The position numbers were made by a program, and so were the translations under genes. The notes below the pieces were generated by a model. That model worked only from the letters and a program-made list of their open reading frames with translations, was not told the DNA's origin and did no database searches. A stretch of DNA of 64,000 nucleotides from Hamadaea tsunoensis DSM 44101 (GTDB lineage: Bacteria; Actinomycetota; Actinomycetes; Mycobacteriales; Micromonosporaceae), in the NCBI RefSeq assembly GCF_000428945.1, contig NZ_AUAX01000008.1, forward strand, positions 310,001 through 374,000. Reading direction: 5' to 3'. The number at the start of each line of letters is the position of its first letter. Position 1 is the stretch's first letter. Shown in pieces: positions 46,834-59,770 of the stretch.

Positions 46834-47655
46834 TCAGCCGAAGCGCCCGTGCACGTAATCGGAAGTTCGCTGGTCCCGCGGGGTGTTGAAGATCGCCTCG
46901 GTACGCCCGTGCTCCACGATCGCGCCCGGCGTACCCTGTTCGGCCAGGAAGAACGCGCACTGGTCGGAGACCCGGGCGGCCTGCTGCATGTTGTGCGTGA
47001 CGATGATGATGGTCACCTCGTGCTTCAGCTCCCCGATCGTCTCCTCGATCCGCCGCGTCGAGGTCGGATCGAGCGCCGAGCACGGCTCGTCCATCAGCAG
47101 CACGCGCGGGCGTACGGCGAGGGCCCGGGCGATGCACAGCCGCTGCTGCTGGCCGCCGGACAGGGCGCCGCCGGGCTGGCGCAGCCGGTCGCGTACCTCG
47201 TTCCACAGGCCGGCCTTGGTCAGGCACTCCTCGACCAGTTCCTCCCGGTGGCCGCGGGAGGCGCGGCGGCCGGTGAGTTTCAGCCCGGCCGTCACGTTCT
47301 CCGCGATGGACATCGCCGGGAACGGGTTCGGCTTCTGGAACACCATGCCGATGTTGCGGCGCGCGTCGGTCAGCCGCCACTGCGCGTCGTAGATGTCCTG
47401 GCCGTCCAGGAGCACCTCGCCGGCGAGCGTCGCCTTGGGCACCAGTTCGTGCATGCGGTTGAGGATGCGCAGGAACGTGGACTTGCCACAGCCGGACGGC
47501 CCGATGAGCGCGGTCACGGCGCCGGCCGGCATGCTCAGCGTGACCTGGTCGAGGACCTGCCGGTCACCGAACCAGGCCGAGATGGACTGGGCGTGCAGGC
47601 CGCCCGCGACGGAGGTGTCGGGCACGGTAGTGCTCCCTTGTAGACGGTCGGTCAT
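46834..47655 (-). CDS. pstB: Phosphate-type ABC transporter ATPase
   Basis: 273 residues from ATG 47655, overlapping the upstream stop by one base. Walker [11 protein letters not shown]-loop [16 protein letters not shown] (typical PstB), signature [15 protein letters not shown], Walker [14 protein letters not shown] and H-loop [20 protein letters not shown]. Length and motifs are normal for PstB. Unlike standard pst operons it is separated from pstC/pstA by about 9.5 kb of surface-protein genes, all on the same strand. Confidence 0.95.
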
Positions 47656-48500
47656 CAGGTCAGGTTGGGCAGCAGGAACGCCACATGGTCGGCCAGCGCT
47701 AGGCCCAGGGCCACCAGCAGCGGGCTCGCCGCCATCCAGGTCTGCCAGCGGCCCCAGCGCGCGCGTACCCAGACGGTCGCGGCGGACAGGATGAGCAGCA
47801 CCTGCCCCAGCAGCACGGCCGTGATCCACTCGCTGGTGTCGGCCGCGAGCGGCTGCTCGGCCTCGGTGATCGCGCCCGGCCCGATCGGCCGGCTCGGCGA
47901 GGGCACCACCGGCGACTCCAGCGCCGCGTCCACCCGCAGCACCCCGCTCGGCGCGAGCGCCGAACCGTCCGCGGTCACCAGGGTCAGCCGGCCCGCTCCG
48001 GCGGCGAGCGGCGCGGGCTGCGGATCACCGGCCACGCGTACGCCGAGCACGCGGTAGACCTGCCGGCCCTGTCCGGTGACGACGGTGAACCGGTCGTCGC
48101 GGACGAGGGCGGCGATGTCGCTGAACGGGCCGCCGAACGCCGCCCGGCGTCCCATGATCACGCTCACCCCGGCCTGGCCGGGCAGCGGGGTGTCGCGGCG
48201 GTGCCCCGGACCCGAGGCCAGCACGCTGCCCGTGGTGCCCTCGAACACCACCTCGTTCAGGCCGATCTGCGGGATCTGCAGCACGGCGATCGGCGTACCG
48301 GCCGGCAGCAGCTTGCCGTCGCCGTCGGTCTGCCCCGTCGGGGCGGTCGCGTTGGCCAGTTCCTCGCGCAGCGTCGCGTAGGCGACGTGCTGGTCCCGCT
48401 CATGCCGGATCCCGCCGATCAACGCGAGGTCGGCGACGAAACCGAGCAGCAGCACGGCGAGGATCGTCAGCGACGCCCCCACCACGTTCGTACGCGTCAC
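47655..48500 (-). CDS. Catalytically dead sortase-like membrane protein
   Basis: 281 residues. Membrane helix near 8-28, sortase-like domain about 65-195, then two more helices near the C-terminus (about 221-243 and 252-278). The sortase pattern is plain ([60 protein letters not shown]), but catalytic His is Arg118 (MGRR instead of AGHR), Cys is Ala177 (VTADG instead of TTC) and the later Arg is missing. It cannot be a transpeptidase. Overlaps its neighbours at both ends (4 bp and 1 bp), so it is translated as part of the pst unit. Confidence 0.85.
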
Positions 48501-58413: not shown

Positions 58414-59393
58414 GCGTCGCTCACCGCCCCGGAGCGGCTGCGGGCCACGATGGTCGAGGCCACGAAGTTGACGATCAGCGTCAGCAGGAACAGCGCGAGG
58501 CCGGCGGCCATCAGCGCGGAGATGCCGAACGCGCTGGAGTCGCCGTAGTGCAGGGCGATGAGCGAGGACACCGAACTGGTTCCCTGTTCGAGGATGTGCG
58601 GCTGGATGACGAAGACCGGCGAGATGATCAGGACGACCGCGATGGTCTCGCCGAGCGCCCGGCCGAGGCCCAGCATCGTGCCGCCGATGATCGCGCCCTT
58701 GCCGAACGGGAGCACCACCGCGCGGACCATGCCCCACCGGGTGGAGCCCAGCGCGTACGCGCCCTCCCGCTCGCCGGCCGGGGCCTGGGAGAACGCCTCG
58801 CGCATCACCGAGCAGGCGATCGGAGTGACCATCAGGGCCACGACCAGGCCGGCGATGAACGTCGAGGCGGTGAAGATGGTCGGCGTCGCGAGCGGGTCGT
58901 CCGGGTCGTAGGACGTCACCTTGAAGATCGGGATCCAGCCGAAGTAGGTCGTGATCCACCGGGAGACGTGGATGACCTCCCACTGCAGGAAGAACGCGCC
59001 CCAGATGCCGTAGACCACGCTGGGCACCGCCGCCATCAGGTCGACCGCGCTGACGAGCCACGGCTTGAGCGCCCGCGGTGCGTACTCGGTGATGTAGAGG
59101 GCCGTGCCGACGGCGAGCGGCAGCGCGACCACGATCGCGACCATGGCGACGAAGATGGAGCCGAGCAGGACCGCGGCGATGCCGAAGTGGTGGCTGTCGG
59201 GCTCCCAGGCCTGCGTGACGACGAACGACCAGCCGTCCGCGCGCAGCGCGGTGAACGCGCGCAGCAGCAGGAAGCCGCCGATGAGCATCATGATCACGAG
59301 GACCGTGACGCCGCCGCCGCGTACGGTGCCGCGGAAGATCTTGTCGGTGGTCGAGACGGCCGAGCGCTGGGTGGAGATCTGCCCGGCCGTCAT
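58410..59393 (-). CDS. pstC: Phosphate-type ABC transporter permease PstC
   Basis: 327 residues from ATG 59393. Six membrane segments. PstC blocks: GSIFVAMVAIVVALPLAVGT, AVDLMAAVPSVVYGIWGAFF, EAA loop GAYALGSTRWGMVRAVVLPF and GLGRALGETIAVVLIISPVF. Normal length. It is the second gene of the cluster, coupled to a small DUF1508-like gene upstream and to pstA downstream by 4-bp overlaps. Confidence 0.95.
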   Translation of the reverse strand: MTAGQISTQRSAVSTTDKIFRGTVRGGGVTVLVIMMLIGGFLLLRAFTALRADGWSFVVTQAWEPDSHHFGIAAVLLGSIFVAMVAIVVALPLAVGTALYITEYAPRALKPWLVSAVDLMAAVPSVVYGIWGAFFLQWEVIHVSRWITTYFGWIPIFKVTSYDPDDPLATPTIFTASTFIAGLVVALMVTPIACSVMREAFSQAPAGEREGAYALGSTRWGMVRAVVLPFGKGAIIGGTMLGLGRALGETIAVVLIISPVFVIQPHILEQGTSSVSSLIALHYGDSSAFGISALMAAGLALFLLTLIVNFVASTIVARSRSGAVSDA

Positions 59394-59770
59394 CGCCGGA
59401 CCATCCGCGGCTCGATCGCCACCGCGTGATCGGAGACCAGCGCGATCGGAACCGCTTCCAGGAACGTGCGCAGGCTCGCCCGGCATTCGCGTTCGCGCAG
59501 GTATTCACGGCCCCGGGTGGCCAGCACGACCCGGTCGGCCTCCAGGCGCCAGGTCCAATGGCCGGTCGCCTCGTCCACAATGAGGCGTCCGACGGCCTCC
59601 GTGTAGTGTGCCCGCAATGTCAGAACGGCTTCGCGGCAGGCGCCGAATGTAGGCGCGGAATACCCGCCGCGGCCCAATTCGCGATTGTTCGACCAGATGA
59701 GTCGCCAGAGAAATCCGGCGCTGTCCGTCGCCCCCGCTCGGGCCACGAACAAGAATCGCGGCGTAGACAC
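59390..59770 (-). CDS. DUF1508/YegP-like protein, first gene of the pst cluster
   Basis: 126 residues from GTG 59770, with GGGAGG 6 nt upstream; the longer frame to 59866 lacks a ribosome site. TPRFLFVARAGATDSAGFLW, then NNRELGRGGYSAPTFGACRE resembles the YegP/DUF1508 fold (xFxxxxxxxGxxxWRLxxxNxxxixxSxxxYxsxxxc). The C-terminal helix RASLRTFLEAVP extends beyond that domain. Cytoplasmic. Its stop overlaps the pstC start (ATGA), which ties it to the transporter. Role unknown. Confidence 0.7.
   Translation of the reverse strand: MSTPRFLFVARAGATDSAGFLWRLIWSNNRELGRGGYSAPTFGACREAVLTLRAHYTEAVGRLIVDEATGHWTWRLEADRVVLATRGREYLRERECRASLRTFLEAVPIALVSDHAVAIEPRMVRR

Follow-up and report, generated by a model that had tools for sequence, protein, structure and literature searches.

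A Conserved Actinobacterial Pst-Type Locus with Tethered PstS-Like Proteins, a Predicted Pseudo-Sortase and Optional Surface Genes

The stretch of DNA considered here, referred to throughout as the window, comprises 64,000 nucleotides of Hamadaea tsunoensis DSM 44101 (positions 310,001 to 374,000 of NZ_AUAX01000008.1) and is part of contig C8 of a 9.48-Mb genome (G000). Between positions 59770 and 46834 of the window, ten co-directional minus-strand genes combine a Pst-type importer with tethered binding proteins and surface proteins, in the order P0010, pstC, pstA, S, L, T, W, D, Z and pstB (pstC, pstA and pstB are shortened to C, A and B where gene order is given). The first gene, P0010 (59390 to 59770), encodes 126 amino acids of unknown family for which the Pfam scan gave no match, and in 18 of 62 related loci the called gene nearest upstream of pstC falls with it into one single-linkage BLAST cluster. 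All three pump proteins pass the cut-offs of their equivalog models: the permease PstC (58410 to 59393) scores 244 bits against TIGR02138 (cut-off 196.45), the permease PstA (57217 to 58413), which by hydropathy carries two additional N-terminal hydrophobic stretches, scores 201.2 bits against TIGR00974 (cut-off 193.45), and the ATPase PstB (46834 to 47655) scores 346.5 bits against TIGR00972 (cut-off 343.2). Approximately 9.56 kb separate the end of pstA at 57217 from the start of pstB at 47655. Genes overlap by 1 to 4 bp at six of the nine junctions (P0010/C, which share 4 bp, C/A, A/S, S/L, D/Z and Z/B, where the start of pstB overlaps the stop of Z by 1 bp), and the remaining three are gaps of 145 bp (L/T), 12 bp (T/W) and 177 bp (W/D), computed by hand from the coordinates.

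An earlier, sequence-only reading of the window had suggested a search for co-occurrence of these gene families across genomes. L was used to scan the GTDB genome collection, which yielded 175 relatives; apart from those on the DUF916 sample, the locus counts given below use the best 80 of these 175, in which stop-to-stop frames were compared with nine window proteins. The complete order C-A-S-L-T-Z-B is present in 57 of the 80 loci, and therefore the gene order is conserved above chance. Partial orders account for most of the others, with C-A-S-L-T in eight, C-A-S-L-T-Z in three and S-L-T-Z-B in three; T is relocated in four loci (T-C-A-S-L-Z-B in two and C-A-S-L-Z-B-T in two), and S-L-T, C-A-S-L, B-C-A-S-L-T, C-S-L-T-Z and L alone are each found once. 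Several of the incomplete loci are carried on short contigs. Of the 68 loci that have Z, 64 also have a pstB that scores above 300 bits; frames are split in one of the other four (L038), two reach contig ends (L039 and L067) and in the last (L022) no pstB was seen in the 4.4 kb after Z. The combination of a Pst-type importer, tethered binding proteins and surface genes is thus a conserved unit, of which the constant non-Pst components are L, T and the pseudo-sortase Z.

Carriers include Actinoplanes, Catellatospora, Streptomyces, Amycolatopsis, Actinokineospora, Nocardioides, Planotetraspora, Cellulomonas, Curtobacterium, Motilibacter and others. Occurrence is scattered. Of 296 genomes sampled phylum-wide, 13 (counting the own genome) match the L profile at E 1e-10, in seven cases along two thirds of its length or more, and L is found in 39 of 150 same-family genomes (again including the own genome), representing 20 of 44 genera. 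Recurrence of the same order in 57 loci, and of L in 39 same-family genomes, led us to reject a recent insertion or strain oddity. The sequence-only reading had named, as an outcome that would speak against it, surface genes inserted recently in this strain only; instead, the W-D pair is found in 23 of 63 complete loci of relatives. An origin from a plasmid or virus was also set aside, as the plasmid collection held no relative of L and none was confirmed in viral contigs.

Three of the proteins encoded between pstA and pstB resemble phosphate-binding proteins. S (55625 to 57220) consists of a PstS domain (TIGR00975, 197.1 bits), a Gly/Thr-rich stalk of approximately 85 amino acids and a C-terminal transmembrane (TM) helix. 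Its ligand positions were assigned by comparison with solved PstS structures and with the phosphate ligands of E. coli PstS, and S keeps most of them. Across 77 aligned rows, Asp82, Gly179 and Ser69 are each present in 77, Ser178 in 76 and Arg174 in 75, position 42 is Thr in 63 and Ser in 14, and position 70 is Ser in 60 and Thr in 17; a Trp occupies the position of E. coli Phe11 in 76. A lipobox-like motif was found in none of the 77 S rows. A landmark motif could be located in 50 of the 79 rows of S, all 50 of which have the C-terminal helix, and in 65 of the 80 rows of L, of which 63 have it. In these rows the stalk that precedes the helix, measured in S from the last conserved Cys, has a median length of 103 residues in S (range 72-185) and 83 in L (range 57-220).

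L (53172 to 55628) is an 818-residue protein with a beta-rich N-terminal part, a domain interrupted by insertions, a stalk and a C-terminal hydrophobic helix. Its match to TIGR00975 is confined to the C-terminal part (E 5e-11). An AlphaFold2 model built from 30 aligned sequences (m9629841efce4; predicted local distance difference test score 81.5, predicted template modeling score 0.79) places the beta-rich part N-terminal to a PstS-like domain, and a Foldseek search with this model returned M. tuberculosis PstS1 (1pc3, E 4e-12) and PstS3 (4lvq) and the PstS of an E. coli complex (9k3x), so the model predicts a PstS fold for L. Alignment of the S and L profiles with hhalign gives 97.3% probability, and six cysteines of L (C100, C113, C214, C230, C282 and C309) are invariant over 30 rows. 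T (52031 to 53026) is a secreted protein that matches PBP_like_2 (PF12849) with 28.8 bits (cut-off 27), as do 13 of 27 members of its alignment at E<=0.01, and its profile matches phosphate-binding proteins of known structure; by hhalign it matches S weakly (49.8%). Its site is altered yet conserved, with the motifs SDTT, DFARSS (Arg129 in 77 of 78 rows) and PQxGSGTR (Arg194 in 77 of 79), and therefore T is not decaying. In the loci read that lack W and D, T is longer and has repeats that resemble immunoglobulin (Ig) domains by eye.

The gene directly before pstB, Z (47655 to 48500), encodes a membrane protein that matches the Sortase family PF04203 with 46.9 bits (cut-off 26.6), as do 28 of 28 members of its alignment, which points to a sortase fold. 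Against the class E model NF033747 it reaches 66 bits, far under the cut-off of 160. All 68 rows have Arg in place of the catalytic His, the AGHR of solved sortases aligning with MGRR, and the catalytic Cys is replaced by Ala in 61, Gly in four, Thr in two and Ser in one; the window protein, in which the Cys position is Ala, has no cysteine at all. The catalytic Arg (Arg189) is retained in 62 of 68 rows. Because His and Cys are replaced across the rows while the fold match persists, Z is a conserved pseudoenzyme that stays with pstB, and an active sortase in the operon is rejected, as neither catalytic residue occurs in any of the 68 rows. Z shares its predicted fold, membrane location and catalytic Arg with class E sortases, among which we count 5uus, 5go5 and 5go6, and with the class E sortase encoded by the own genome (C6:59857, NF033747 218.4 bits, cut-off 160), which has AGHR and TLTTC. 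It differs from these in the exchanged His and Cys, in its location directly before pstB, and in two extra C-terminal hydrophobic stretches, hydropathy of Z (P0008) suggesting one N-terminal and two C-terminal helices. Elsewhere in the window, a minus-strand gene at 17514 to 18488 encodes a sortase (PF04203, 82.7 bits) whose GH and TC motifs, unlike those of Z, are intact.

Between T and Z lie two further surface genes. W (50471 to 52018) has a signal peptide, a conserved N-terminal domain, two Ig-like domains, where two Big_3_5 stretches are found, and a C-terminal WxL-like domain that scores 20.8 bits under a gathering cut-off of 25; the W alignment has 15 members, of which eight match the WxL family PF13731 at E<=0.01. 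The first Trp (W414) is invariant in 15 rows, and an end reading LTxI or similar replaces the second WxL motif. A structure model of W is all-beta, and Foldseek returned mostly Ig-like arrays, which decides nothing. D (48497 to 50293) comprises a WxLIP_PGBD (DUF916, PF06030) domain (31.0 bits, cut-off 27.3; 14 of 15 alignment members at E<=0.01), a TM hairpin, a second outer domain and a C-terminal TM helix, before which it reads LAGSG where some relatives have LAxTG. DUF3324 (WxLIP_HBD) is absent from the Pfam matches of D and 14 relatives. Homology links the N-terminus of W with the C-terminal half of D (40% over 136 columns, E 7e-24). This segment, at approximately 52018 to 51550 in W, is a recurrent secreted domain without a Pfam match, and by eye it also occurs in sorting-signal proteins of L018 and L037. 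The inventory given by the sequence-only reading is borne out: pstC, pstA and pstB, about 9.5 kb of same-strand genes between pstA and pstB, a PstS with a membrane tail, an 818-residue and a third PstS-like protein, a DUF916-like protein, a dead sortase and mostly overlapping junctions. Its Ig/WxL-like protein holds for the Ig part, and for the WxL part falls short in score and in the second motif. A firm Firmicutes-type WxL cluster is rejected, given the sub-threshold match, the missing second motif and the lack of a DUF3324 match.

The description of the transporter as built around the WxL/DUF916 pair was also too strong. Among 63 complete loci, that is, those with S, T, Z and B, in which W and D were counted when each exceeded 100 bits, 23 carry both between T and Z, 38 carry neither, W alone is present in one (L026) and D lies elsewhere in one (L088). 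Because only 23 of the 63 have the pair between T and Z, it is an accessory of some lineages. On a quick S tree without bootstrap, comprising these 63 loci and the window, 25 loci have D and it was not found in the other 39, a pattern that takes three changes as compared with approximately 20 in shuffles. One Streptomyces olivochromogenes assembly, judging by record prefix, holds a copy with W/D and a copy without (L031 and L048), and two S. shenzhenensis strains (L018 and L066) have one form each. A sorting signal (LPxTG or LAxTG) followed by a helix and a basic tail ends a cassette protein in 11 of the 80 loci, and a few more were seen by eye; in four Streptomyces loci (L028, L030, L032 and L035) this protein is D itself. 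Since Z is dead, these signals would need a sortase encoded elsewhere.

We also read a sample of 41 DUF916 loci, consisting of one from each of 40 same-family genomes (of 57 with a match) and the second copy of the own genome. DUF916 lies beside such pst genes in ten, in three arrangements: between T and Z in three (L122, L136 and L139), after pstB in five (L120, L127, L129, L133 and L147) and before pstB-pstC-pstA-S in two (L128 and L143). These last two, from same-family genomes, show the rearranged order W-D-pstB-pstC-pstA-S, and the stretch in L143 ends with part of L. In five others (L097, L134, L141, L146 and L149) DUF916 lies beside a Liv-type importer. The remaining 26 show neither importer, and a W-like gene is close by in 24 of these (16-17 kb read). 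The second DUF916 protein of the own genome (L097:6267-15292, on G000:C7) lies in one run with a secreted-looking 549-amino-acid protein, a protein that resembles a binding lipoprotein by eye (no Pfam match), a LivF-like ATPase, a branched-chain-type permease-ATPase fusion and a neocarzinostatin-like protein, and this cluster recurs in L134, L141, L146 and L149.

The existence of a separate canonical pst operon elsewhere in the genome had been raised as a point to check, and such an operon, with the order pstS-C-A-B, is present at C17. Its PstB scores 376 bits as compared with 346 for the locus copy, and its PstS has a lipobox. In 18 of 18 other carrier genomes there is likewise another, higher-scoring pstB (363.8-390.4 bits against 331.6-346.9 for the locus copy); here the locus copy was recognized by position and the other copy by its pstB score. 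The idea that the locus is the sole pst operon of its genome is therefore rejected, and the locus is additional to another pst operon. No phoU adjoins the locus, and the sole PhoU detected in the own genome (C3:231061-231618) lies apart from both pst loci.

Upstream of pstC we searched for GTTCAY, that is, GTTCA(C/T), which resembles the PHO-box repeat unit. In the loci that offer 400 bp or more of upstream sequence and a PstC above 300 bits, 74 in all, a sense-strand match 115-230 bp upstream of the pstC match is found in 37, as compared with 4.7 +/- 2.0 (maximum 10) in 200 dinucleotide shuffles and 9 of 74 in simpler position controls; many of these loci are related, such that independent events are fewer than 37, and the other half have no such site. 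A coding artefact was rejected, as 37 of 37 sites lie outside called upstream genes and shuffles give 4.7. A second near-unit lies exactly 11 bp away at 12 of 43 GTTCAY sites, against four over six other offsets, and in an earlier scan for two units, 17 of 75 sequences reached >=12/14 matches where about two are expected. PhoP boxes of Streptomyces are described, in the part of PMC7866108 consulted, as 11-nucleotide direct repeats. The window itself has a single, weak PHO-box-like half site, GTTCAT, at 59887 to 59892 on the minus strand, approximately 120 bp upstream of the first gene. At the other end, minus-strand genes encode a 547-amino-acid lipoprotein-like protein with a C-terminal VWA domain (44626 to 46269), followed by two genes without a Pfam match (42853 to 44992).

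We consider it reasonably probable that these genes specify an auxiliary Pst importer that is tethered to the membrane, contains a sortase-fold subunit without catalytic activity and can be extended by a wall-docking module. PstC, PstA and PstB would form the pump and would work beside the canonical PstSCAB. S would be its phosphate-binding subunit, in which a flexible stalk and a membrane helix replace the lipid anchor; on this tether it could capture phosphate inside the wall and still dock on PstC and PstA, with PstB driving import. L, tethered and with a predicted PstS fold, and T, secreted, look degenerate or re-specialized and would probably act as a relay, a scaffold or a receptor for another phosphorus form. 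Z would probably bind the juxtamembrane tails of S and L, or that of D, leave them uncut and so hold the outer parts at the pump, an organizing role that is the least supported step of the mechanism. For the lineage to which the window belongs, docking of the assembly to peptidoglycan would fall to W and D, through a WxL/WxLIP-like interaction. The assembly might then be a device spanning the cell wall, as the sequence-only reading had suggested. That Actinobacteria more generally use wall-docking surface modules as parts of ATP-binding cassette (ABC) importers, with stalked binding proteins, a dead sortase fold as a receptor for sorting-signal-like tails and DUF916/WxL-like pairs that dock to peptidoglycan, is a broader and tentative proposal that we hold doubtful on present evidence.

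Several findings weigh against the importer reading. S falls narrowly below the TIGR00975 equivalog cut-off of 205 bits, and its position 180, the second ligand Thr, is Thr in 37 of the 77 rows, Ser in 37 and Ala in three. In the hhalign alignment, read by eye, L conserves nothing that corresponds to the Asp or the Arg/GSGT loop of S, and T lacks the canonical phosphate ligands and has no counterpart of the PstS Arg; some parts may therefore serve another ligand. L was found in none of three same-genus genomes sampled, and no pstB lies within 4.4 kb after Z in L022. The PHO-box-like element of the window is one half site in which no second repeat unit was seen. The WxL match of W stays under its cut-off, and most complete loci are without W and D.

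This last point bears on an alternative in which W, D and the sorting-signal proteins constitute an independent adhesion or wall module that shares operon and regulation, and only C-A-S-L-T-Z-B form one machine. Such a module would fit the limited occurrence of W and D between T and Z, the 12 and 177 bp gaps that flank W, and the 24 of 41 DUF916 loci that have a W-like gene without these transporter genes. However, W-D lies beside pst genes in ten of the 41 loci in three arrangements, which makes hitch-hiking from a single ancestor unlikely, and DUF916 recurs with a Liv-type importer in a further five; we regard an independent module as the less probable account, though the strongest of the alternatives considered.

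A somewhat smaller chance attaches to a pump for another substrate, such as phosphite, an organophosphate, wall-polymer phosphate or arsenate, with L and T as receptors and S as co-receptor. The conserved but non-PstS site of T, with Arg129, Arg194 and a largely kept Gly-Ser-Gly-Thr, the lack of the Arg/GSGT loop in L, and the other pstB already present in all 18 carrier genomes tested would agree with this; on the other side, S retains a nearly full phosphate ligand set, and PstC, PstA and PstB pass models for phosphate transporters. Most improbable to us is a device mainly for phosphate sensing or signaling, with the pseudo-sortase and the degenerate PstS proteins as sensor head. Two of the three binding proteins do look degenerate or changed, PHO-box-like elements lie upstream and another pst is also present, but a pstB above 300 bits accompanies Z in nearly every locus that has it, and the single PhoU found in the own genome is not near the locus.

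The importer reading can be set beside systems already described. M. tuberculosis has several PstS-fold proteins for Pst pumps, and L is closest in fold to two of them, PstS1 and PstS3; PstS1 to PstS3 are lipid-anchored and are not known to have stalks, TM anchors or sortase-like or WxL-like partners. With the canonical PstSCAB of the own genome (L096) and, as far as the sections consulted describe it, of Streptomyces (PMC7866108), the locus shares the PstC, PstA and PstB families, most PstS ligand residues and, in relatives, PHO-box-like elements. It differs in its three PstS-fold proteins, two of them on stalks with TM anchors, in the lack of a lipobox, in a pseudo-sortase adjoining pstB, in a long surface-gene insert and in the order C-A-S-...-B in place of S-C-A-B. 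The pst replacement reported in Salinispora concerns, in the portion consulted, a four-gene pst operon (PMC3314556). As in Firmicutes WxL/WxLIP clusters (PMC10599100 and PMC9772566, parts consulted), a TM-anchored DUF916 protein adjoins a protein with a WxL-like end, and some relatives have sorting-signal proteins; unlike those clusters, the locus is actinobacterial, shows no DUF3324, second WxL motif or small WxL protein, and is joined to an ABC importer. Peptidoglycan binding is reported for the WxL domains of Firmicutes, and AlphaFold2 models led to the proposal that DUF916 inserts a strand into WxL (both from the consulted part of PMC10599100).

In the open-access literature, as far as it was covered, we found no description of this gene set, of a sortase-fold partner of a Pst importer or of actinobacterial DUF916 proteins tied to import; subscription journals and preprints lay largely outside this coverage. 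How binding proteins reach substrate through the thick monoderm wall while serving a pump in the membrane is rarely addressed, and this conserved gene set would offer an unusual answer, with a natural pseudo-sortase as a near-constant partner. DUF916 proteins, hitherto discussed for host adhesion in Firmicutes, would here be tied to nutrient import. The locus cautions against annotating L, T and S simply as PstS, and for L, T, Z, D and W, families whose role is unknown, it provides a context in which they can be tested.

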